Source: Rossellomorea marisflavi
GTDB lineage: Bacteria; Bacillota; Bacilli; Bacillales; Bacillaceae_B
Assembly: GCF_022170785.1 (NCBI RefSeq)
Contig: NZ_CP081870.1
Span: forward strand, 3,212,001 to 3,276,000
Direction: 5' to 3'
DNA length: 64,000 nt
Of the stretch, positions 5,771 to 38,771 are shown piece by piece. Made by a program: the position numbers and the translations under genes. The number at the start of each line of letters is the position of its first letter. The first letter of the stretch is position 1. The notes under the pieces were generated by a model. That model searched no databases, had not been told where the DNA came from, and saw only the letters and a program-made list of their open reading frames with translations.

Positions 5771-6141
5771 ACTCAACACCCTTTCTACGATCAGTATGAG
5801 CCATCGGAGAAGAATGGTCCGGTCATTTTGGGTCGGGTTCTGACAGGACCCTGTATTACTTTGTACACGCTTCACTAAGAGCGTTCTCACATGTTGTATT
5901 GTCGATCATACTGGGTTGATGCATTGGAATGCTCTTATTAAGCTTTTCCTTTTTACATACACAACGCCCCCATCCGACAGTCCCCTCTTCCCATCGCTCC
6001 TCTATCGACCCTCCATGCGTATTGACAGCATAAAAAATGCCCAAGTCCGTTTAGGTGAACGGCCTTTGGGCTTGACTACATGGTTTATGCTAGGAGGTAA
6101 CAGGTCCCATTTCTTCCCCGATCTATCCCCTCTTTCTTCTA
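5771..6141. other. Intergenic region, no gene seen
   Basis: Short open frames on both strands lack ribosome binding sites and recognisable products. The only clear element is the minus-strand terminator at 6031-6071. Confidence 0.5.
6031..6071 (-). terminator. Terminator of the 6142-6912 membrane protein gene
   Basis: Read on the minus strand: GCCCAA, internal GCCGTT...AACGG pairing, TTGGGC, then ATTTTTT. It lies about 70 bases after the stop codon. Confidence 0.7.
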
Positions 6142-6912
6142 TTATAATTTAGCTCCTTTTAAAACCTGATCATGCCATGATAAACAAAGGTCGATCAGTC
6201 GGGCTACAAAGGATATGACGGTCTTGATAAAAACTATGACAAAAAGGGTATAGACGCCGATATATACATAATCATCCGTTGAGGGGGCCGATTGGTCAAG
6301 ATTGACTGGACTTTTCAAAACCTCTTGATGAAGGACAAAGAGTAGGGTCAGCTGTATGATAGGAGCAAAGATCCTTACTCCTTTCTTCCTCACCATGATG
6401 GCAACAAGCTGATCAATGATCCCCACTGCTACACAACTCATAATCAGAACCGAGGAACGGTCACTCCCCCCTTGGAGGAACGACTTAGCACTGTATTCTT
6501 CTCCACTATTGTAAATCGCAATGAAGATGCTCCCATACTTTTGGAACTGATAGATGAGTGTAATGAGTAACCCTGTTAATACTAACGCAACAATCACATT
6601 GGTTTTTGTCCTTTGTAGGGAACCTTGTTTCCTATTGATCCACATCAGGTTATTGATGTCCCTCTTCTTATCGTAAAGCTTCAGTGATAGCCAAAGAACT
6701 ATCAAACCTGGAAGGAATGAAAGTACGGTCAGTTTTCCAAAGTAGACGAATGGAAATATGAAAATATCCACCTTGAACAGACTGGTCACCAAACCGAACC
6801 CCACTATGATGGAGCACAGGATGAGGCTGTAGCGAATGAAATAATCTTTGAACCTTCTTTTTTTCTTGTCGTCCTCTATCCTAGGTTCATATTTCCCTTT
6901 AGATGTACTCAT
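6142..6912 (-). CDS. Unrecognised polytopic membrane protein
   Basis: A 256-residue protein of unknown function. The N-terminus is highly charged (KYEPRIEDDKKKRRFKDY). It is followed by about six hydrophobic segments: roughly residues 26-46, 52-75, 105-125, 150-172, 180-197 and 210-235. A charged loop, KLYDKKRDINNLMWINRKQGSLQRTK, separates the second and third. No catalytic motif is visible. The ATG has AAAAGGAG at good spacing, and a solid terminator follows, so it is probably a real single-gene unit. The neighbours give no functional clue. Base composition is somewhat lower in GC than the flanking fructanase gene. Confidence 0.6.
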   Translation of the reverse strand: MSTSKGKYEPRIEDDKKKRRFKDYFIRYSLILCSIIVGFGLVTSLFKVDIFIFPFVYFGKLTVLSFLPGLIVLWLSLKLYDKKRDINNLMWINRKQGSLQRTKTNVIVALVLTGLLITLIYQFQKYGSIFIAIYNSGEEYSAKSFLQGGSDRSSVLIMSCVAVGIIDQLVAIMVRKKGVRIFAPIIQLTLLFVLHQEVLKSPVNLDQSAPSTDDYVYIGVYTLFVIVFIKTVISFVARLIDLCLSWHDQVLKGAKL

Positions 6913-7450
6913 GGCATACTCCTTTTAGCAGCAGATTTTCAAAATCCGGGACTCCTCAAGGTTTTTCAATCGGTAGGTCACTTCTATAAGCGACTTCGAT
7001 CGGTCTTCTTTATATATAAAAAGTTTGTATCAGATCTCACCCCTCCAAAAAAAAGCACATTTTACCATTTTTTCGTTATCAAAAGTATAAAAAAGCATCC
7101 TTCAGATGTAAATCCCATCTATCCAAAACAGACCTTTTGGCCCATTATAACGTAACTGATGGTTTTAAAACGTATGTAGCCGATGCATTGGTTCACGTTG
7201 ACATAAATAAGAACAAGTAGGGGTGGGTTCCCATTCGCTTAACTTCCTATCATGGATTCTATACCAGAAGGAAATTCTCACACAAAACCCAGCCATAAAA
7301 ACGGTATCGTCTATGGCTGGGTTCATTGCCTATCTAGTTTGCTGGTTCCATTGGATTTAAGCGACTGGCTTTGTCCGATCACTAGATCCAGCCAATTAAC
7401 CTCGGTTTATTGTAGCTATCTCTCTAATTCAAAGGTTGAACGTTCCGGAT
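6913..7450. other. Intergenic region of about 540 bases
   Basis: It separates the 6142-6912 gene from the broken fructanase gene. It holds AT-rich sequence, likely with the promoter of the membrane protein gene, and one hairpin at 7286-7323. I see no supported coding region. Confidence 0.45.
7286..7323 (-). terminator. Hairpin after the GH32 gene
   Basis: Twelve-base arms AACCCAGCCATA (7286-7297) and TATGGCTGGGTT (7312-7323). On the minus strand it is followed by TTTTG only. It lies 128 bases after the GH32 stop. Confidence 0.45.
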
Positions 7451-29542: not shown

Positions 29543-29776
29543 ATGAGTGCTTTACAACGTATTGCATTGGTTCTCACCATCATCGGTGCCGTGAACTGGG
29601 GGCTGATCGGATTTTTCCAATTCGACCTCGTCGCCGCCATTTTCGGAGGACAAGGTGCCGGACTTTCCCGGATCATCTATGGTCTGGTCGGAATTTCAGG
29701 ACTGATCAATCTTGGATTACTTTTCAAACCGACAGAGGAACTGGAACGGGATCACCGTACAGAACCTACACGATAA
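29543..29776 (+). CDS. yuzA: YuzA, DUF378 small membrane protein
   Basis: A 77-residue protein of the DUF378 family with two helices: residues 4-24 (IALVLTIIGAVNWGLIGFF, including the conserved NWGL) and 43-62 (IIYGLVGISGLINLGLLF). A charged tail follows. AAGGAGG lies before ATG 29543; the longer open frame from 29456 is not used. Function unknown. The gene keeps its B. subtilis position beside yugJ and pgi. Confidence 0.88.
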   Translation: MSALQRIALVLTIIGAVNWGLIGFFQFDLVAAIFGGQGAGLSRIIYGLVGISGLINLGLLFKPTEELERDHRTEPTR

Positions 29777-29785
29777 ATGAAATTC

Positions 29786-29823
29786 AAGAAGGCGTCCCCA
29801 CTAGACGGGACGCCTTCTTCTTT
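29786..29823. terminator. Bidirectional terminator between yuzA and the aldehyde dehydrogenase gene
   Basis: Perfect 13-base arms AAGAAGGCGTCCC (29786-29798) and GGGACGCCTTCTT (29807-29819), then CTTTATTT. Confidence 0.85.
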
Positions 29824-31213
29824 ATTTCAGCAGCTTTTTAATGAGCTGCATGCCGAATCTTCCATTCGGATACCGGAAGCTCATATCGAATTTATTCGTC
29901 TGTTTCATGACGCTTTTATAGTGGGAGAATGTGGAGAAGCTGGACTCACCGTGATAGCTCCCCATGCCGCTTTCCCCTACGCCACCGAATGGAAGATAGG
30001 GCGTCACGATATGCATCAGGGTATCATTGATACAGCCCCCGCCATACGAGATATTCCCCGTGATGGCGGCTTCGGTTGCTTCATTGTTTGTGAACAGATA
30101 CAGTGCCAGGGGCTTCGGCCTTTCCGTTACATAGTCAATGACTTCTTCCAGGTTTTCGTACTCGAGCACCGGGAATACGGGACCGAAGATTTCTTCCTGC
30201 ATGACCGGGACAGAGTGATCCTTCGGTGTCATCAGGGTCGGCTCCATCTTCAGGAACGTACGATCGAGCTTCCCGCCTAAGAGGATTTCCCCGTCCTCGA
30301 GATAAGAGGCAATCCTGTCGAAATGCCGTTCATTGATGATGCGACCGTACTTATCATTCTTGAGGGGCTCGGGACCATAAAATGTCACGACGGCTTTCTT
30401 GAACTCCGTGATGAATTGCTCCTTGATGCTCTTATGAAGGAAAAGATAATCCGGGGCGATGCAGGTCTGTCCTGCATTCGTGACCTTCCCGAAAGCGATC
30501 CGCTTGGCTGCAAGGGCGATATCCGCCGTCTCGTCCACGATGCAGGGGCTTTTCCCACCAAGCTCGAGGGTGACAGGGATCAAGCGTTTGCTTGCCGCTT
30601 CCATGACGACCTTCCCGACAGGTACACTCCCCGTGAAGAAGATATAGTCAAACGGTTGGTCAAGGAGATGACCCGTTGTTTCCACTCCTCCTTCAATCAC
30701 TTTCAGCACATGTCCGTCAAAGCGGGCGGAGATGATCCGCTCAAGAAGACGTGATGTATGGATGGTAAGCTCCGAAGGCTTGATGATGGCCGTGTTCCCT
30801 GCTGCGATGGCACCGATCACAGGGGCAAGGGCAAGCTGGATCGGGTAATTCCACGGTGAGATGATCAGCGTGACCCCATAGGGTTCCGGTACCGAATAAC
30901 TTTTAGACCCGATATGGGTCTTGGCTACCTTTACTTTTTTCGGTTCTGCCCACTCATCTATGTGTTTGAGCACGAAGCGTATCTCTTCCAAAAGGATGCC
31001 GATCTCCGTTGCATAGGTCTCCATTTCAGACTTGTTCAGATCCATCTGCAGGGCGTGAATGATGTCTTCCTCATGATCCTTGATCATCTGATAGAGCGTT
31101 TCGAGGGTTTCTTTCCTGATGGAAATGGATCTCGTATGTCCATTCTTGAAAAAGGACTTTTGATTCTGTATGGCATGCTTTACCGCTTCAAGGGATGTTT
31201 CTGCAATGTTCAT
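29822..31213 (-). CDS. Aldehyde dehydrogenase, YwdH-like
   Basis: A 463-residue class 3-type aldehyde dehydrogenase that oxidises (fatty) aldehydes with NAD(P). Visible motifs are SPWNYPIQLALAPVIGAIAAGN near 120, FTGSVPVGK near 195, the general base Glu in [11 protein letters not shown] near 218, and the catalytic Cys in NAGQTCIAPDY near 252. The C-terminus SFRYPNGRFGMQLIKKLL is longer and more basic than in soluble relatives, as in membrane-attached fatty aldehyde dehydrogenases. Closest in appearance to B. subtilis YwdH. Transcribed alone. Confidence 0.9.
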   Translation of the reverse strand: MNIAETSLEAVKHAIQNQKSFFKNGHTRSISIRKETLETLYQMIKDHEEDIIHALQMDLNKSEMETYATEIGILLEEIRFVLKHIDEWAEPKKVKVAKTHIGSKSYSVPEPYGVTLIISPWNYPIQLALAPVIGAIAAGNTAIIKPSELTIHTSRLLERIISARFDGHVLKVIEGGVETTGHLLDQPFDYIFFTGSVPVGKVVMEAASKRLIPVTLELGGKSPCIVDETADIALAAKRIAFGKVTNAGQTCIAPDYLFLHKSIKEQFITEFKKAVVTFYGPEPLKNDKYGRIINERHFDRIASYLEDGEILLGGKLDRTFLKMEPTLMTPKDHSVPVMQEEIFGPVFPVLEYENLEEVIDYVTERPKPLALYLFTNNEATEAAITGNISYGGGCINDTLMHIVTPYLPFGGVGESGMGSYHGESSFSTFSHYKSVMKQTNKFDMSFRYPNGRFGMQLIKKLLK

Positions 31214-31311
31214 CTTTCATGACCTCCGATTCACTATGTATCCGCTTTAGCTGTTCTTCCTTCAATCGTACGAACGGAACAGGTGAATGTCAATTTTATA
31301 AAGCGCACATA

Positions 31312-31346
31312 CCAAAAAAAGCGCATCATCCCGAGGGATGATGCGC
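31312..31346 (-). terminator. Terminator of rocG
   Basis: GCGCATCATCC-CGAG-GGATGATGCGC with a T7 run on the minus strand, 15 bases after the rocG stop. Confidence 0.88.
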
Positions 31347-31361
31347 CATGGTATGCGATGG

Positions 31362-32615
31362 TTAGACCCAACCTCTGAATCTTGAGGCTTCAGCCATTTT
31401 GCGCGCTCCCACCATGTAGGCGGCAAGACGCATATTGACTCGGCGGTTCTGTGATGTTTCATAGACATTATTGAACGCTTCGACAAGCTTGATCTGAAGC
31501 TTCTCGTTTACTTCTTCCTCTGTCCAATAATAGCCTTGGTTGTTCTGTACCCATTCGAAGTAGGATACCGTTACACCGCCTGCGCTTGCAAGGACGTCCG
31601 GTACAAGGAGGATGCCACGTTCGGACAGGATCCTTGTTGCTTCGAGCGTGGTCGGTCCATTCGCCGCTTCCACGACGATGGACGCCTTGATATCATGGGC
31701 ATTCTGCTCCGTAATCTGATTCGAGATGGCAGCAGGCACCAAGATATCACAATCCAGCTCAAGGAGCTCCTTGTTGGAAAGTGTATTCTCGAATAGCGTC
31801 GTGACGGTTCCGAAACTGTCGCGGCGGTCCAGGAGGTAATCGATATCGAGTCCGTCGGGATCATGAAGCGCCCCGTGGGCATCCGAGATGGCGATGACCT
31901 TGGCTCCGGCATCATGCATGAACTTCGCAAGGAAGCTACCTGCATTCCCGAATCCTTGGATCACGACACGGGCTCCCTTGATATCGATTCCGCGCTTTTT
32001 GGCCGCTTCGTCGATGCAGATGGTCACACCTTGCGCGGTCGCTTTTTCACGACCCTGTGATCCTCCGAGGACGATCGGTTTACCCGTGATGAAACCAGGA
32101 GAATCATTTTCCCGCAAACGGCTGTATTCATCCATCATCCAGGCCATGATCTGCGAGTTGGTGTACACGTCAGGTGCCGGAATATCCTTCGTCGGCCCGA
32201 CGATCTGGCTGATCGCCCTTACATATCCACGGCTGAGCTTTTCAAGCTCGGTGAAGGACATGGTGCGGGGATCACAGATGATCCCGCCTTTTCCTCCGCC
32301 GTACGGAAGATCGACGATCCCGCATTTCAGGCTCATCCACATGGAGAGCGCCTTCACTTCTTCCTCATCGACCTCAGGGTGGAAACGTACGCCTCCCTTT
32401 GTAGGACCGACAGCATCATTATGCTGTGCGCGATAACCCGTGAAAACCTTGATGCTTCCGTCGTCCATCCTGACAGGGATGCGGACGGTCAGCATGCGGA
32501 TCGGTTCTTTTAGTAATTCGAACATTTCTTCGGAATAGCCCAGTTTGGACAAAGCATCATTGATGACATGTTGTGTAGAAGTAAACAGATTAAGGTTTTC
32601 TCCCATTGTTAACAT
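31362..32615 (-). CDS. rocG: NAD-dependent catabolic glutamate dehydrogenase
   Basis: Converts glutamate to 2-oxoglutarate and ammonia, the last step of arginine, ornithine and proline use. The 417-residue protein has the catalytic Lys region KGGVRFHPEV and LKCGIVDLPYGGGKGGI near 85-110, PAPDVYTNSQIMAWMMDEY, and the Rossmann segment VVIQGFGNAGSFLAKF. It is close to B. subtilis RocG and GudB; RocG is chosen because rocD and rocA lie next to it. It has its own terminator, and a cre box overlaps its promoter region, in line with CcpA repression of rocG in B. subtilis. ATG 32615 (near GAGG) and ATG 32606 are both possible starts. Confidence 0.93.
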   Translation of the reverse strand: MLTMGENLNLFTSTQHVINDALSKLGYSEEMFELLKEPIRMLTVRIPVRMDDGSIKVFTGYRAQHNDAVGPTKGGVRFHPEVDEEEVKALSMWMSLKCGIVDLPYGGGKGGIICDPRTMSFTELEKLSRGYVRAISQIVGPTKDIPAPDVYTNSQIMAWMMDEYSRLRENDSPGFITGKPIVLGGSQGREKATAQGVTICIDEAAKKRGIDIKGARVVIQGFGNAGSFLAKFMHDAGAKVIAISDAHGALHDPDGLDIDYLLDRRDSFGTVTTLFENTLSNKELLELDCDILVPAAISNQITEQNAHDIKASIVVEAANGPTTLEATRILSERGILLVPDVLASAGGVTVSYFEWVQNNQGYYWTEEEVNEKLQIKLVEAFNNVYETSQNRRVNMRLAAYMVGARKMAEASRFRGWV

Positions 32616-32636
32616 TCGCCTCTTTATTATGTGATC

Positions 32637-32650
32637 TGAAACCGTTGTAA
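32637..32650 (+). promoter_or_regulatory. cre box upstream of rocG
   Basis: TGAAACCGTTGTAA matches the cre consensus TGWAANCGNTNWCA at 13 of 14 positions, 21 bases before the rocG start. CcpA acting here would repress glutamate breakdown when glucose is present. Confidence 0.65.
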
Positions 32651-32725
32651 TTGTAACATATAACTGTTACCTAAACCATCAGCATCTACAAAATTTCGAA
32701 AAGATTCCGTCTCTTGCCCACGCTT

Positions 32726-33916
32726 TCAAGAAAGCACTTTCTTGATACGCTCGATTGCCCAGTCCAGATCTTCCTGGGAAATCACAAGAGGTGGGGCGAA
32801 TCGGATGACGGTATCATGGGTTTCTTTACAAAGAAGTCCTTCATCCTTCAGCTTTTCACAATACGCACGTGCAGGTTCATGAAGCTCGACCCCGATGAAG
32901 AGACCACTTCCCCGGACCTCCTTGATGAGGGGGTTCTTGATCTCCTTAAGTTTCCCCATGAAGTACTCGCCCAACTCAAGGGAGCGATCTGCAAGCCTTT
33001 CATCGATGAGCACATCGAGTGATGCGATGGAAACGGCACATGCCATCGGGTTTCCTCCGAATGTAGAACCATGAGAGCCGGGATTGAACACGCCAAGGAC
33101 CGATTCATCCGCCACTACGCATGAAATCGGGAACACCCCTCCACCGAGTGCTTTACCGAGAATGTACATATCTGGATCGACCCCGGCCCACTCACACGCA
33201 AACATCTTACCGGAACGGGCAAGCCCCGCCTGGATCTCATCCGCGATAAAGAGCACATTCTGTTCTTTGCAAAGATCTGCGGCTGCTTTCAAGAAGCCTT
33301 CAGGAGGGAACACAATCCCTGCTTCTCCTTGGATCGGCTCGATGAGGAAAGCGGCGGTATTTGGAGTGATCGCCTCTTTCAACGCGTCAAGATCGCCATA
33401 TGGGATGAGATTGATTCCTGGCAGCATCGGACCGAATCCACGCTTATACTCTTCTTCAGATGATAGGGAAACAGCCGTCATCGTCCTGCCGTGGAAGTTT
33501 CCATTGCACGCGATGATCTCAGCACGGTTTTCTTCTACGCCTTTCACATCATATGCCCAGCGCCTGGCCGTTTTGATGGCCGTCTCGACTGCTTCTGCTC
33601 CCGTGTTCATCGGGAGGGCCATGTCCTTGCCTGTCAGCTCACAGATTTTCTCGTACCATGGTGCCAATTGATCGTTATGGAAAGCGCGTGATGTGAGCGT
33701 CACACGGTCCGCCTGATCCTTCAGCGCCTGGATGATCTTCGGATGGCGATGGCCCTGATTGACTGCAGAATACGCACTGAGCATATCCATATAGCGGTTG
33801 CCTTCGGGATCGGTCACCCATACCCCCTCTGCTTCCGAAATGACAATCGGCAGGGGATGATAATTCCTTGCTCCGTATTTATCTGTTTGATCGATGATCG
33901 CCTGTGAATTCGCCAT
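32726..33916 (-). CDS. rocD: Ornithine aminotransferase
   Basis: PLP enzyme converting ornithine and 2-oxoglutarate to glutamate semialdehyde and glutamate. The 396-residue class III aminotransferase has [18 protein letters not shown] near 43, [17 protein letters not shown] near 105, [14 protein letters not shown] near 138, [21 protein letters not shown] near 225 with the PLP-binding Asp, and the Schiff-base Lys in LGKALGGG near 255. Length is typical of RocD. It is downstream of rocA on the same strand across 84 bases with only a weak hairpin, so rocA-rocD is likely one transcript with rocG separate. Confidence 0.94.
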
Positions 33917-34000
33917 GTATATTCCTCCTTTAAATTCATCGGTACTACCTGTTTATATAAGGATGGAGCCCCTGTCAGACAAGAGCTCCTTCCGTTTTCA

Positions 34001-35545
34001 TTATAGAGTTTCAGATGTTGTTTTCGCTTGTAGATGAAGCAAGAGATAGTCAGGGCCGCCTGCTTTTGAATCCGTACCGGACATATTGAATCCTCCGAAC
34101 GGCTGGTATCCGACGATGGCACCTGTACAACCGCGGTTGAAGTAAAGGTTACCGACGTGGAAGTCCTCTCGTGCCTGTTCGATTTTCTCACGGTTGTTCG
34201 TGATGACCGCTCCAGTCAATCCGTAATCCGTGTTGTTCGCGATCTCAAGGGCATGATCGAAATCCTTCGCCTTGGAGAAGGCTACGACCGGTCCGAAGAT
34301 TTCTTCCTGCATGAGTCGTGCATCAGGAGCAAGGTCGGCAAAGATCGTTGGTTTGACGAAATAGCCTTTCGAGTTGTCTCCCTCGCCTCCGACCATGAGT
34401 TTTCCTTCTTCCTTACCGATTTCGATGTAGCTCATGATCTTATCGAATGATGCTTGATCGATGACCGGCCCCATGAAGTGATCCTGGTCGACAGGGTTTC
34501 CGACTGTAAGTTCCTTCGTCAATTCAACCGCACGTTCCAGCACCTGATCGTATACATCTTCCACGACGACGGCACGTGAACAAGCCGAGCATTTTTGACC
34601 GGAGAATCCGAAGGCAGATGCGACGATGGATTTAGCCGCTAGTTCGATATCGCCTTCTGAATCGACGACGATCGTATCTTTTCCGCCCATTTCAGCGATC
34701 ACGCGCTTCAGCCATTTCTGACCAGGGTGGACTTTTGCAGCCCTTTCGTAGATGCGGATCCCGACATCACGTGATCCCGTGAAGGAGATGAAACGTGTTT
34801 TCGGGTGGTCTACGAGGTAATCCCCGACTTCAGCACCGCTTCCAGGGATATAGTTGATGACGCCTTTTGGAAGTCCGGCCTCTTCAAGTACTTCGATGAA
34901 TTTAGCCGCAACGACAGCTGTCGTGGATGCAGGCTTCAACAATACGGTATTCCCTGTCACGATGGCAGCCACCGCCGTACCGGCCATGATGGCAAACGCG
35001 AAGTTCCAAGGAGAGATGACAACACCCACTCCCAGAGGGATATAGTTGAACTGGTTGTATTCACCAGGACGGCTTTCCACAGGGAATCCATCTTTCAGGC
35101 GCAGCATCTGGCGTGCATAATACTCCATGAAATCAATCGCTTCAGCCGTATCGGCATCCGCTTCATTCCACGGTTTACCCGCTTCTTTTGTCAGAAGGGC
35201 TGAGAATTCATGCTTGCGGCGGCGTACGATGGCAGAGGCACGGAACAGGATATCTGCACGTGTTTCCGGTTTCACTTTCCGCCAGGTCTGGAATGTATCA
35301 TATGCTACGTTCATTGCTTTTTCTGCGAGTTCCTGATCGGCTTTTGATACATTTCCGATCAGTTCTTTATGGTCTGCAGGATTGACTGACACCAATTTTG
35401 CATCAGTAGTCACTCGCTCCCCGCCGATAATCAGGGGATAGTCTTGTCCAAGATAGGCTTCAACTGTTTTTAAGCCTTCTTTATACGCTTTTTGGTTTTC
35501 TTTGTTCGAGAAGTCTGTGAATGGTTCATGCTTGTAAGGAATCAT
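34001..35545 (-). CDS. rocA: 1-pyrroline-5-carboxylate dehydrogenase
   Basis: Oxidises glutamate semialdehyde/P5C to glutamate with NAD. The 514-residue product shows the P5CDH form of the aldehyde dehydrogenase fold: [22 protein letters not shown] near 170, [18 protein letters not shown] near 248, the base Glu in [14 protein letters not shown] near 285, and the catalytic Cys in [13 protein letters not shown] near 318. The C-terminal [23 protein letters not shown] is characteristic of RocA/PutC. It could serve both arginine and proline breakdown, as no putB-type proline dehydrogenase lies nearby. Its promoter region is shared with the divergent rocR-like gene. Confidence 0.95.
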
Positions 35546-35599
35546 ATGGGTGTTGCCCCCTTTTAAACAAAGATTTTTAGTGAGATCTCAGAGGGTTAC

Positions 35600-35660
35600 T
35601 GTCGCAAAACGCAAAAAATATTTGCATTCAGAAAACCCTTACACTTATAATAATGCAAAA
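35600..35660. promoter_or_regulatory. rocA/rocR intergenic control region: GCAAA half-sites and sigma-A promoter
   Basis: Plus strand: TTGCAT (35622-35627), 18-base spacer, TATAAT (35646-35651), a good sigma-A promoter for the rocR-like gene. Around it are several GCAAA half-sites: TCGCAAAACGCAAAAAATA followed by TTTGCATTC (an inverted pair), and ATGCAAAAGATGG further on. These are candidate operator sites. I see no -24/-12 (GG-N10-GC) element facing rocA. Confidence 0.5.
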
Positions 35661-35760
35661 GATGGTTGCTTTTTTCAAGAGTTTTTTGAAAAATTTTTAT
35701 TTTCAAAGTCACCTATGCGACTTGAAAGATAATGGAGTACCAATCGAAGGGGGATTCATC

Positions 35761-37110
35761 GTGCTCGAACGTGAGAAACGCCTATATATGTATGAAGTCG
35801 TGGCCCATCACCTCGAGTCAGGTGTCCACGTCATCGATTCGACCGGACGGACCGTGATTTACAATAGTAAAATGAGGGAAATCGAAGGCATGGAAGTCGA
35901 GGATGTATTGGATAAAAACCTCCTCGATGTCTTTCAATTTCACTCAGAAGAAGAAAGCACCCTTCTTCAGGTGCTCCACACAGGGACACCTACGCTGAAC
36001 GTGAAGCAAACCTATTTCAATAGCAATGGCGTGGAAATTACCACGATCAACGACACATATCCCATTCATTTGGAAGGGGAAATCATCGGTGCGGTTGAAA
36101 TTGCACGGGATGTGACAACATTGGAAAAAATGATGAAGGGCTATGTTCATACACGCCCGGTTCCTCCAGCCTTTCATCGCATCGTGGGGTCGCATCCCCG
36201 AATTCAGGAAGCGCTCTCCGCTGGGAAGAAAGCCGCCCTGTCCACGACTCCAATCCTCATTTGTGGGGAAATCGGTACGGGTAAGGAAATGTTGGCACGA
36301 AGCATCCACTGTGATGGCATACGGAAGGATGCTCCTTTCATCAAGCAGGATTGTTCGTCCATGCCTGGTGAAGATCTATCGATGATCCTTTTTGGTACCG
36401 GTTTCAAAGACGGGGTCATGAACGAAGCCGCAGGTGGGTCGATCTTATTCGATGAACTGAATGCCATGCCCATCCACGTGCAAGAACAATTACTCGACCT
36501 GATGGACAGGAGTTCAATACCTGATGTCCGCCTCATGGCCACGGTCAATGAAGATCCGATCGACGCGGTGGCAGAGGGCAGGCTGTTGAAGGAACTGTAC
36601 TATCGGTTCAGTTCGGCCTCCTTCTTCATCCCTCCTCTCAGGAACAGGCTGGATGATCTGCAGGAGCTTGTACCGAGCTTCCTGGATCGATTCAATCACC
36701 ACTATGCCAGGAACGTCACAGGCATTTCCCAAGAGGTTGAGGAGACGTTCCGTCAATACGACTGGCCCGGGAACGTGAGGGAACTCGAGCACGTGCTGGA
36801 AGGAGCGTATCAGCTCATCGGCTCCCATAAGGTAATCGGATTCAATCACCTCCCATTCGGCTTCCGGCAGCGGATCCATCATTCTCCTGTCGCCGACATC
36901 CACCAGGGCGACTCCGATTTCCTCCACCAGTCAGGAAGCGAACCTAAACCCCTTGAGGTCTTCATGGAAGAAGCTGAGACATACTATATTCAAAAAGCCA
37001 TGAAGCATCACCAATTCAATGTCACCAAGACCGCCAAGGCACTCGGGATGAGCAGGCAGAATCTCCAGTACAGAATCCGCAAATATGGCATCGAGCGCGG
37101 GGGATATTGA
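35761..37110 (+). CDS. rocR: RocR-like PAS/AAA+/Fis activator lacking the sigma-54 contact loops
   Basis: A 449-residue regulator with the order PAS (about 10-120, VHVIDSTGRTVIYNSKMREIEG), AAA+ (about 140-370) and Fis-type helix-turn-helix (about 419-443, NVTKTAKALGMSRQNLQYRI). It aligns through its length with B. subtilis RocR, activator of the roc genes with sigma-54. Walker A (GEIGTGKE, 169-176) and Walker B (SILFDEL, 227-233) are kept. But after LFGT, where RocR has KKGAFTGAVDQPGLFEQ, this protein has only GFKDGVMNE, and the second loop (RRIGDTKDTPI in RocR) is also gone (SSIPDVRL). So it may act without sigma-54. The GTG start follows AAGGGGG at seven bases. It is divergent from rocA. 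Confidence 0.85.
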   Translation: MLEREKRLYMYEVVAHHLESGVHVIDSTGRTVIYNSKMREIEGMEVEDVLDKNLLDVFQFHSEEESTLLQVLHTGTPTLNVKQTYFNSNGVEITTINDTYPIHLEGEIIGAVEIARDVTTLEKMMKGYVHTRPVPPAFHRIVGSHPRIQEALSAGKKAALSTTPILICGEIGTGKEMLARSIHCDGIRKDAPFIKQDCSSMPGEDLSMILFGTGFKDGVMNEAAGGSILFDELNAMPIHVQEQLLDLMDRSSIPDVRLMATVNEDPIDAVAEGRLLKELYYRFSSASFFIPPLRNRLDDLQELVPSFLDRFNHHYARNVTGISQEVEETFRQYDWPGNVRELEHVLEGAYQLIGSHKVIGFNHLPFGFRQRIHHSPVADIHQGDSDFLHQSGSEPKPLEVFMEEAETYYIQKAMKHHQFNVTKTAKALGMSRQNLQYRIRKYGIERGGY

Positions 37111-37161
37111 ATTCTTACGTGAAAAATATGAGGATCGGACAATGTGTTTTAGCCATAAGGA

Positions 37162-37205
37162 AACCCGGATTCCTTTGTCTCAAATAAGGCAAATGAATCC
37201 GGGTT
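37162..37205. terminator. Terminator after rocR, also behind the katA unit
   Basis: Perfect 11-base arms AACCCGGATTC (37162-37172) and GAATCCGGGTT (37195-37205) with a 22-base loop, followed by ATTATG on the plus strand. Confidence 0.75.
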
Positions 37206-37206
37206 A

Positions 37207-37284
37207 TTATGTTGTTTGTGGAAAGCGTAGTCTTGCACGGAAATCATGAGCGTATTTAGATCCGACACTGATCGTGTTGGTCAT
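37207..37284 (-). CDS. Possible 25-residue peptide downstream of katA
   Basis: A minus-strand frame of 25 codons (product begins MTNTISVGSKYAHDF, ends FPQTT) starts 27 bases after the katA stop. A strong AGAGGGGG sequence stands six bases before its ATG. The codons lie in the 3' part of a dispersed intergenic repeat (a second copy is near 53.3 kb), and the other copy has no ribosome binding site and a different reading. So this may be a chance frame inside the repeat or a small peptide that arose from it. It would be co-transcribed with katA and ends at the terminator. Confidence 0.3.
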   Translation of the reverse strand: MTNTISVGSKYAHDFRARLRFPQTT

Positions 37285-37286
37285 TA
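37219..37286. repeat. 3' fragment of a dispersed Bacillaceae intergenic repeat
   Basis: GGAAAGCGTAGTCTTGCACG followed by GAAATCATGAGCG, and further on ACTGATCGTGTTGGTCAT, match the right-hand end of the element at 53205-53360 (AGTCTTGTACGGATATCATG, ACTGATATTGTTCGTCAT). The left half is missing here. Confidence 0.7.
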
Positions 37287-37310
37287 AATACCCCCTCTTT
37301 CGTTTTAGCT

Positions 37311-38771
37311 TTATTGCATATGTTGAAGGTATGGGGTGAGATCGACCCCGATTTCTTTCGAAAGTTCTTTCCCCAATTCCGCATCGGCTCGGAAGAAGTT
37401 GCAGACTGCACGCAAGGCAATGCGCGTATCGATTCCTGCCAGTTCACTTGAAATGTTTTTGACCACCTGGGCTTTCACTTCATCTGGGTAGCTCCTAAAA
37501 ATGTCTCCTGCCTGACCAAAATCATCGGTTTTACGGATCTTGATCCTACCTCTTTCACCAGTGACTGGTTGATGAATCTCTTCATACCCCGGTACTTCCT
37601 CAGGTTCCCCTGAAAAGCTGTTCGGTTCATAGTTCACCGGACTCTTCTGCTGCTTGAACGGCATCCCGCCATCCCGCTGGTTATTGGCTACCTGTGCGAA
37701 TGGACAGTTGATTGGAAGCTGAAGATAATTGGCTCCGATCCGGTAGCGCTGGGTATCGGAATAAGAGAATAATCTTCCCTGCAGCAGTTTATCTTCAGAA
37801 GGAAGCATCCCATTGACCAATACACCCGGGTTGAATCCGGCGGACTCAGTCTCCGCAAATACATTTTCAGGATTCTGGTTGAGGATCATCGTCCCGACAA
37901 AGTGGGCAGGAATATCCTCTTCCGGCCAGTCCTTTGTAGCATCCAGAGGATCGTATGAGAAAGAATCAAGTTCCATCGGATCAAGGATCTGGACGTACAG
38001 ATCCCATTCAGGATAATTCCCTTCCTCAATGGCCTCATAGAGGTCCCTGCTTGCATGGTTGAAGTCCTTACCCTGGATCTCAGCTGCTTCCTCTGCAGAC
38101 AGGTTTCGGACCCCCGCCTTCGGCTTCCACCTCAACTTCACATAAACCGTATTCCCAGCCGCATTCACCCATTTGAATGCATGCACACTCGACCCCCGCA
38201 TTTGGCGATAGTTTGCAGGAATCCCTTCATCGGTGTACAGATGAAGGAGCATATTCGTCGACTCCGGTGACAGGGTCATGAAGTCCCAGTAGCGCTCAGG
38301 TTCCTGAATATTCGTCTGCGGATTCGGTTTAAGGGCATGAACCATATCCGGGAACTTCATCGCATCGCGGATGAAGAAGACAGGCAGATTATTGCCGACA
38401 AAATCCCAGTTTCCTTCTTCGGTGTAGAACTTAACTGAAAATCCCCGGGGATCACGCAGCGTTTCCGGAGAGTGCTGACCATGGATCACAGTCGAAAAGC
38501 GGGCAAATACCGGCGTTTCCTTCCCTTCCTCCTGAAGGAAGGCAGCTTTAGTATACTTCTTCATACTATTTTTCGTGACGAAAACCCCATGGGCCCCCGC
38601 TCCCCTCGCATGGACCACCCGCTCCGGAACCCGTTCCCGGTCGAAATGCGCCAATTTCTCAATTAGTTGATAATCTTCGAGAAGAGTAGGTCCATTACTT
38701 CCAGCCGTTAACGAGTTTTGATTGTCTCCAATAGGGGCTCCTTGATTCGTTGACAGTTTTTGATTTTTCAT
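37311..38771 (-). CDS. katA: Vegetative heme catalase KatA
   Basis: Monofunctional heme catalase decomposing H2O2. The 486-residue protein is a small-subunit clade 3 type, as in B. subtilis KatA. The distal catalytic His is in RVVHARGAGAHGVF near 56, the Asn in GNWDFVGNNLPVFF near 128, and the proximal heme-ligand Tyr in RLFSYSDTQRYRIG near 338. AAAAGAGG precedes the ATG. Two PerR boxes lie directly upstream, so induction by peroxide through PerR is expected. The gene is followed by a small frame with a good ribosome binding site and then a terminator. Confidence 0.97.
   Translation of the reverse strand: MKNQKLSTNQGAPIGDNQNSLTAGSNGPTLLEDYQLIEKLAHFDRERVPERVVHARGAGAHGVFVTKNSMKKYTKAAFLQEEGKETPVFARFSTVIHGQHSPETLRDPRGFSVKFYTEEGNWDFVGNNLPVFFIRDAMKFPDMVHALKPNPQTNIQEPERYWDFMTLSPESTNMLLHLYTDEGIPANYRQMRGSSVHAFKWVNAAGNTVYVKLRWKPKAGVRNLSAEEAAEIQGKDFNHASRDLYEAIEEGNYPEWDLYVQILDPMELDSFSYDPLDATKDWPEEDIPAHFVGTMILNQNPENVFAETESAGFNPGVLVNGMLPSEDKLLQGRLFSYSDTQRYRIGANYLQLPINCPFAQVANNQRDGGMPFKQQKSPVNYEPNSFSGEPEEVPGYEEIHQPVTGERGRIKIRKTDDFGQAGDIFRSYPDEVKAQVVKNISSELAGIDTRIALRAVCNFFRADAELGKELSKEIGVDLTPYLQHMQ

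Follow-up and report, generated by a model that had tools for sequence, protein, structure and literature searches.

The RocR-type regulator encoded beside rocA-rocD-rocG of Rossellomorea marisflavi has lost both of its sigma-54 contact loops. It belongs to a single clade of GAFTGA-less regulators, in which the divergent roc operon has exchanged its -24/-12 promoter for one of sigma-A type, P1, with RocR-type dyads at fixed positions inside and just downstream of it. On these sequence comparisons the regulator is very likely uncoupled from sigma-54. We consider, with moderate confidence, that this former enhancer activator acts from inside the sigma-A promoter as a repressor relieved by inducer.

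The regulator and its locus

The window (the whole stretch of 64,000 nucleotides that was analysed) carries the regulator gene head to head with rocA-rocD-rocG (Table 1). The open reading frame of 449 aa, from its GTG to its stop codon, lies where it had been placed beforehand. Pfam recognised, in order, PAS, Sigma54_activat (about 92-93 bits), an AAA lid and HTH_8, and none of the NCBIfam models reached its cut-off with the window regulator. Following LFGT, GFKDGVMNE stands where the GAFTGA loop is expected, and SSIP stands for the pre-sensor loop; the original prediction, which described both losses together with retention of Walker A (GEIGTGKE) and Walker B (ILFDEL), was correct on each of these points. 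It had missed that the first arginine finger, an R at the fourth place of its segment in 54/54 loop-intact relatives, is lost as well. Thus, of the motifs for ATP hydrolysis, the sequence has Walker A, DE and the second R, and lacks the first R. Sequencing error as the source of the short loops was considered unlikely and dropped, since R. marisflavi JCM 11544 (L017, 99% identical) has the same loops. Whether close relatives share the deletion had been left to be checked: the other Rossellomorea relatives in the alignment are likewise devoid of GAFTGA, each with a loop of its own, and the loss, as judged from the alignment, is clade-wide over many related genera and not peculiar to the window genome. 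An AlphaFold model of the protein was middling (mean pLDDT 75, pTM 0.59); its AAA+ core resembles ZraR, NtrC1 and NtrX, and the model added nothing further.

Table 1. Features of the roc locus, in coordinates of the window
Feature	Position	Strand	Evidence or remark
terminator-like hairpin after rocG	31320..31347	-	12 such sites in window vs 7.4 expected
rocG-type glutamate dehydrogenase	31362..32615	-	Pfam ELFV_dehydrog; no NCBIfam model over cut-off
rocD, ornithine aminotransferase	32726..33916	-	TIGR01885 above cut-off
rocA, L-glutamate gamma-semialdehyde dehydrogenase	34001..35545	-	TIGR01237 above cut-off
RocR dyad 2 (TGCAAATATTTTTTGCG), centre 44 bp downstream of dyad 1	35610..35626	-	pattern, conservation
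P2 candidate -35 TTGCAT, weak, for regulator, overlapping dyad 2	35622..35627	+	inference from sequence; pair not picked by consensus scan
P2 candidate -10 TATAAT, overlapping P1 -10, just upstream of dyad 1	35646..35651	+	inference from sequence
P1 -10 hexamer CATTAT, 17-bp spacing (other reading: TATTAT at 20 bp)	35650..35655	-	
RocR dyad 1 (AGCAACCATCTTTTGCA), inside -35/-10 spacer of P1	35654..35670	-	pattern, conservation
P1 -35 hexamer TTGAAA toward rocA	35673..35678	-	TTGAA in 63/63 loci
RocR-derived regulator, 449 aa, PAS - AAA+ - lid - Fis-type HTH, GTG start	35761..37110	+	ORF, Pfam, alignment, tree
PAS domain, residues 17-121, presumed effector sensor	35809..36123	+	Pfam PAS_4, PAS, PAS_9
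Walker A GEIGTGKE, kept	36265..36288	+	also kept in 70/71 GAFTGA-less relatives
L1 loop remnant FGTGFKDGVMNE, replacing FGTKKGAFTGA..ERPGLFEQ	36391..36426	+	alignment
Walker B SILFDEL, DE kept	36439..36459	+	DE not kept in 38/71 GAFTGA-less relatives
pre-sensor (L2) loop remnant SSIP	36511..36522	+	alignment
arginine-finger segment GRLLKELYYRF, first R lost, second R kept	36577..36609	+	alignment
Sensor II motif WPGNVREL, kept	36763..36786	+	alignment
Fis-type HTH (HTH_8, residues 402-442) with SRQNLQYR	36964..37086	+	Pfam, alignment

The genome itself (4.31 Mb, two contigs) encodes sigL, and its four strongest sigma-54-activator domains scored 227-248 bits as against 93 for the window regulator, so that both sigL and other regulators with a sigma-54-activator domain, whose presence was to be ascertained, were found. 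The same genome also encodes a 456-aa PAS-type regulator (L002:1057-2427; G000:C1, about 3800484) with GAFTSS at the GAFTGA position and intact Walker motifs, which may be a second loop-modified enhancer-binding protein.

Some variation in locus layout was seen among relatives. In several Rossellomorea species (L023, L024, L025) what appear, by eye, to be the last rocA codons lie between P1 and rocD, as if rocA had been deleted from the operon and P1 now drove rocD-rocG. In loci of the Geobacillus family (L040, L176, L242, L244) the regulator and rocA stand about 1.5 kb apart, with what seems to be a further gene, perhaps for a permease, between them; a separate P1 whose dyads are altered precedes rocA there, and only dyad-like remnants are left upstream of the regulator. 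The RocR gene of Neobacillus terrae (L047, match 6001-7377), whose loop reads GTFTGA, seems to be broken, with frames of 164 and 215 aa against about 460 expected.

Promoters and dyads upstream of the roc genes

Relatives were collected by a scan of named genomes, which gave 33 loci, and by a search of 150 genomes of the own order, in which regions were taken from the 74 genomes with matches at E <= 1e-70. Together with 25 loci from the promoter scan described below, the comparison set consisted of 125 RocR-type regulators, of which 54 have a GAFTGA-like loop and 71 lack one. Duplicates (L050, L051, L053, L054, L019, L163, L171), the frameshifted L047 and a paralog group (L124-L156) were removed before counting. 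Promoters were counted only where the regulator faces a divergent roc gene at a distance of 30-700 bp, which applied to 63/71 GAFTGA-less and 35/54 loop-intact regulators, the other 19 loop-intact regulators being outside the count.

Ahead of the divergent roc gene, 35/35 loop-intact loci and none of the 63 GAFTGA-less loci had a near-perfect -24/-12 element, whereas the sigma-A-type P1, TTGAA[AT]-N17-CAT[TC]AT, was common to 63/63 GAFTGA-less loci and found in 0/35 loop-intact ones; since the tree needs one change only, these counts reflect a lasting association after one event and not independent trials. The best -24/-12 scores were 13.2-14.4 of a possible 14.4 in the loop-intact loci, reached by 0/200 shuffles for 34 loci and by 3/200 for L122, and 7.5-11.9 in the GAFTGA-less loci, among them 24 loci of family f49 with a best score of 9.5. 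Mismatches to the P1 pattern numbered 4-8 in loop-intact loci and 0, 1 or 3 in 54, 8 and 1 GAFTGA-less loci, respectively. The pattern occurs once in the 64-kb window (0.01 expected). In the own genome, the pattern without ATTAT matched one place without mismatch, one more with one mismatch and eight with two. By consensus alone P1 was unremarkable, being one of two promoter-like sites in 35500-35800 against 0.9 expected, with seven in 29700-37400 against 8.4, and its weight therefore rests on conservation.

Scanning 398 genomes of the class for the promoter alone, at <=1 mismatch, detected P1 in 36 genomes: five belong to the own order and 31 to f49, a family of another order, possibly Planococcaceae, from which 38 genomes had been sampled; the reversed control gave no hits. 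Of the 37 places 30 were fetched; six of the others lie in as many f49 genomes, and the seventh is a further place in G226 with one mismatch. All 30 had a RocR-like regulator and 29 also had rocA or its start (L219 showed no rocA in the stretch taken, and L211 the first 22 rocA residues only). The notion that P1 is absent from the remaining seven f49 genomes was dropped, as a RocR-like hit lies beside rocA in all seven, with P1 variants whose -35 reads, mostly by eye, TTGCAA, TTGATT or TTGCAT. Among the eight GAFTGA-less regulators outside the promoter counts, P1 lies beside the regulator in five (L036, L039, L157, L166, L219). The pattern was absent from the regulator's own upstream region in three of the Geobacillus family (L040, L041, L176), and two genomes of this family have P1 at rocA itself. 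Copies of rocA away from the regulator (L238, L240, L250, L251; in the loop-intact genomes G110 and G119, plus G044) had neither P1 nor -24/-12 within 330 bp, and no rocA was found in G020 at E <= 1e-150.

The predicted operators are of one type, 17-bp TGCAA-N7-TTGCA-type dyads, in 32/35 loop-intact and 63/63 GAFTGA-less loci. Over the 35 loop-intact loci 65 dyads were counted, where 1.2 would be expected; they begin 47-254 bp ahead of the -24 TGG. In the GAFTGA-less loci dyad 1 begins at +8 from the start of the -35 hexamer, in the spacer, in 62/63 (the exception being L044), and dyad 2 at +51 (7 loci) or +52 (56 loci) in 63/63, so that their centres are 43-44 bp apart. Further dyads in these loci comprise two upstream of -35 (L092, L230) and three farther downstream. 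The dyad occurs once in the own genome, at the roc locus. A wider regulon, sought with this dyad, was not clear in the 21 genomes with hits: of 57 hits (27 in the control), 20 lay at roc and 37 elsewhere against 27 expected. Two loop-intact loci deserve mention. In the sigma-54-type locus L102, TGTAAGGGTTTTC stands directly before the -24/-12 upstream of rocA, and the same string TGTAAGGGTTTTC sits between both dyads in most own-order P1 promoters. Upstream of rocD in L167 a dyad is flanked in a P1-like manner (AGAAAAGAAGCAACCATATTTTGCATCAT), which may show a sigma-A promoter arising over an enhancer dyad.

One clade, sigma-54 and the decay of the motor

In a tree of 109 regulators with the loop columns excluded, the 47 GAFTGA-less rows formed one clade (100/99), nested among loop-intact, mostly roc-linked regulators and adjoining L045, L158 and L161. 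The clade was kept (100/98) in a second tree of 79 rows, containing 30 own-order and 12 f49 members of it, the latter being 12 of the 25 f49 regulators read; neither tree contained a named B. subtilis RocR row. One change of state suffices, and several independent loop losses were therefore dropped as an explanation. The protein is a RocR by descent, and it lacks both the GAFTGA loop and the -24/-12 target promoter of a sigma-54 activator.

Sigma-54 (PF04552) was over cut-off in 24/54 genomes of GAFTGA-less lineages outside the window's genus and missing in 30/54, as against 44/44 loop-intact genomes in which it was present; all 25 genomes of the window's genus have it. The 30 genomes comprise 25 of the 38 from f49, plus G095, G126, G101, G130 and G157. 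A second sigma-54 model, PF04963, was over cut-off in 0/18 of these genomes that were re-tested, with one sub-threshold; sub-threshold sigma-54 matches stood at 21.2 bits in G465 and 21.7 bits in G481. The loop region was read in 22 of the 30 (5 own-order, 17 f49); four are represented by a hit beside rocA only and four by a promoter hit only. Where a genome has no sigma-54, its regulator cannot be a sigma-54 activator. Uncoupling of arginine/ornithine catabolism from sigma-54, as the original prediction had it, is supported by the single clade, by the promoter switch and by the distribution of sigma-54.

Motor motifs have eroded unequally. Walker A, Walker B DE and the two arginine fingers are intact in all 54 loop-intact regulators, whereas among the GAFTGA-less ones Walker A survives in 70/71, DE in 33/71, the first finger in 13/71 and the second in 32/71. 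The least changed of these, L159, has a NAYPGA loop and all remaining motifs, and its promoter is already P1. DE was lost in several own-order lineages (e.g. L162, L165, L172, L092, L098, L094) and is kept in 22/22 within the window's genus; all 25 f49 regulators read have lost loop, DE and both fingers and retain Walker A. In the HTH, SRQNLQY is found in 70/71 GAFTGA-less but only 8/54 loop-intact regulators. At PAS identity of 50-60%, loop-intact pairs (685) share 76.4% identity in the AAA+ core and GAFTGA-less pairs (1101) 37.0%, whereas HTH identity is 47.6% in the former and 60.1% in the latter. Since AAA+ identity falls and HTH identity rises at equal PAS identity, conservation has moved from the motor to the DNA reader. 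That the ATPase had been kept for another use can therefore be upheld only in part: Walker A persists almost throughout, and the window protein has DE and the second finger besides, but DE and the fingers are lost in most of the clade, and AAA+ core and lid are the least conserved parts of its members.

Proposed mode of action and relation to known systems

We propose that an ancestor gave up the GAFTGA loop and that P1 took over from the -24/-12 promoter of its divergent roc operon. Dyads of the type that stand as enhancers upstream of -24 in loop-intact loci thereby came to lie within the promoter: dyad 1 fills the -35/-10 spacer, and dyad 2, at about +15 to +34, lies in the early transcribed region. 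Bound at dyad 1, a dimer would obstruct the -35 and -10 elements; dyad 2 overlaps what may be the -35 of the promoter that serves the regulator. The dyad centres lie 43-44 bp apart almost without variation, suggesting that the bound dimers touch. Dimers on the two dyads would most likely shield P1 as well as the regulator's divergent promoter and thereby repress the roc operon and the regulator's own gene alike. Ornithine or arginine, sensed by PAS, may relieve this repression. The AAA+ domain would be left as an ATP-binding or oligomerising scaffold for which hydrolysis is dispensable. Repression of both promoters is favoured because of the dyad positions and their nearly fixed spacing. It has against it that an inducer-activated activator must turn into an inducer-relieved repressor, and the retention of Walker A, plus Walker B DE in this genus, also counts against the model, as does the missing P1 pattern upstream of the three Geobacillus-family regulators.

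The inversion of effector logic would not be needed if the regulator were a sigma-A activator, bound to dyad 1 in an over-long 20-bp spacer and distorting the DNA or touching RNA polymerase, with dyad 2 cooperative and the inducer acting as in B. subtilis RocR; this is possible, though we think it unlikely. Spacers of such length would suit activators that distort the spacer, MerR for one, and 20 bp is little more than dyad 1 takes up. The -10 of P1 can be read in two ways. TTGAA-N20 with A-11/T-7 fits 62/63 loci, and in most loci TATTAT at 20 bp matches a -10 hexamer more closely (5.02/6 on average, compared with 4.0/6 at 17 bp). At 17 bp, however, A-11/T-7 is present in 63/63: the 20-bp hexamer of L049 loses T-7, and two Geobacillus-family rocA promoters (L242, L244) have CATAAT at 17 bp and AATATA at 20 bp. 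These promoters together with L049 favour the 17-bp reading, in which P1 has the normal form of a sigma-A promoter and is predicted to depend on sigma-A. Dyad 2, moreover, lies downstream of the start, in the transcribed region, an unusual place for an activator site; this, the 17-bp spacing and the CATAAT hexamers were all counted for repression. There is precedent for such activation in the GAFTGA-less NtrC of Rhodobacter capsulatus, which activates via sigma-70 (cited in the available text of PMC10274813).

Continued sigma-54 activation through the degenerate loop, from a cryptic -24/-12 near rocA, is extremely improbable. The genome does encode sigL, and the modelled AAA+ core looks like those of NtrC1, ZraR and NtrX, but the best -24/-12 score between rocA and the regulator was 10.1, matched by about half of the shuffles, and a scan of the whole window gave hits no more often than shuffles and none in this intergenic region; relatives with the same promoter occur, besides, in genomes without sigma-54 over cut-off. 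Only slightly less improbable is a decaying regulator on its way out, leaving rocADG effectively constitutive. The poorly conserved AAA+ domain and the long branch of the window protein (0.51-0.54 changes per column) would agree with it. Within the genus, however, PAS and HTH are on average 90.4% and 91.1% identical (22 rows), conservation of the HTH exceeds that seen in loop-intact relatives, and dyads 2 and 1 persist in 63/63 and 62/63 loci, respectively.

The repressor proposed here would be part of a larger history, on which our judgement is evenly balanced: over two orders of Bacilli, regulator and promoter would have switched together once, from sigma-54 activator to dual-operator repressor, the motor being dismantled stepwise (GAFTGA, then L2 and the arginine fingers, then Walker B) and sigma-54 then being lost from many genomes. 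The RocR proteins of B. subtilis and B. thuringiensis share with the window regulator the domain order and the divergent placement beside roc genes, and the window regulator is nested in loop-intact roc-linked regulators. It differs from them in that GAFTGA and the pre-sensor loop are gone and that the dyads lie inside a sigma-A-type promoter without -24/-12. The SigA-promoter suppressors of B. subtilis rocDEF, reportedly first studied by Zaprasis et al. in 2013, likewise moved a roc operon from sigma-54 to sigma-A. They are laboratory point mutations that switch on a cryptic SigA promoter before rocDEF (available text of PMC9245794) and leave RocR in place, with no joint change of regulator and promoter; by analogy, they show a route by which the switch could begin. 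For B. thuringiensis RocR, both GAFTGA and a sigma-54 target promoter are described in the accessible part of PMC4428206.

Loss of GAFTGA as such has precedents. NtrC of Caulobacter and R. capsulatus has no GAFTGA and regulates sigma-70 promoters; it resembles the present case in L1 loop loss combined with a sigma-70-type promoter (here predicted), and differs in being a two-component response regulator of Alphaproteobacteria, for which the portion of PMC10274813 that was available describes no matched promoter replacement. In the RocR clade, by comparison, decay of the motor has gone further, and many genomes have no sigma-54 over cut-off. TyrR, DhaR and HupR have a defective GAFTGA and are reported to be sigma-70 dependent, and VpsR and YplP, defective likewise, have been argued not to depend on sigma-54 (PMC3162934, in part). 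All five are relatives of enhancer-binding proteins, as is the window regulator, but with other regulons and sensors, and neither a dyad moved into a conserved promoter nor a clade-wide stepwise loss of the motor is described for them in that part of the source. A defective GAFTGA with a sigma-70-type target promoter, which defines the TyrR-like class, is found here through the conserved P1, with sigma-A dependence predicted. No GAFTGA-less RocR is described in the available text of PMC6615313, PMC4348106, PMC13198045 and PMC12316311, and literature searches, within whose reach most subscription papers did not fall, gave no report of such a RocR or of P1. Thus the class of GAFTGA-less derivatives of enhancer-binding proteins was already known; the RocR clade belongs to it and adds a matched promoter replacement with progressive motor loss over two orders.

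Single enhancer-binding proteins without GAFTGA are known, but few natural series show regulator and promoter leaving sigma-54 together. Here one operon allows the comparison of a loop-intact sister group, the near-intact L159 (NAYPGA, P1 present) and increasingly degenerate relatives. If our reading is true, these form a natural series from an ATP-driven activator to a repressor that has no motor left but retains the ATP pocket. The family also holds a warning for annotation, as the Pfam sigma-54 interaction domain is well over cut-off in these regulators, yet many of the genomes are without detected sigma-54. For the organisms concerned, the findings predict a sigma-54-free, possibly sign-inverted control of arginine catabolism.
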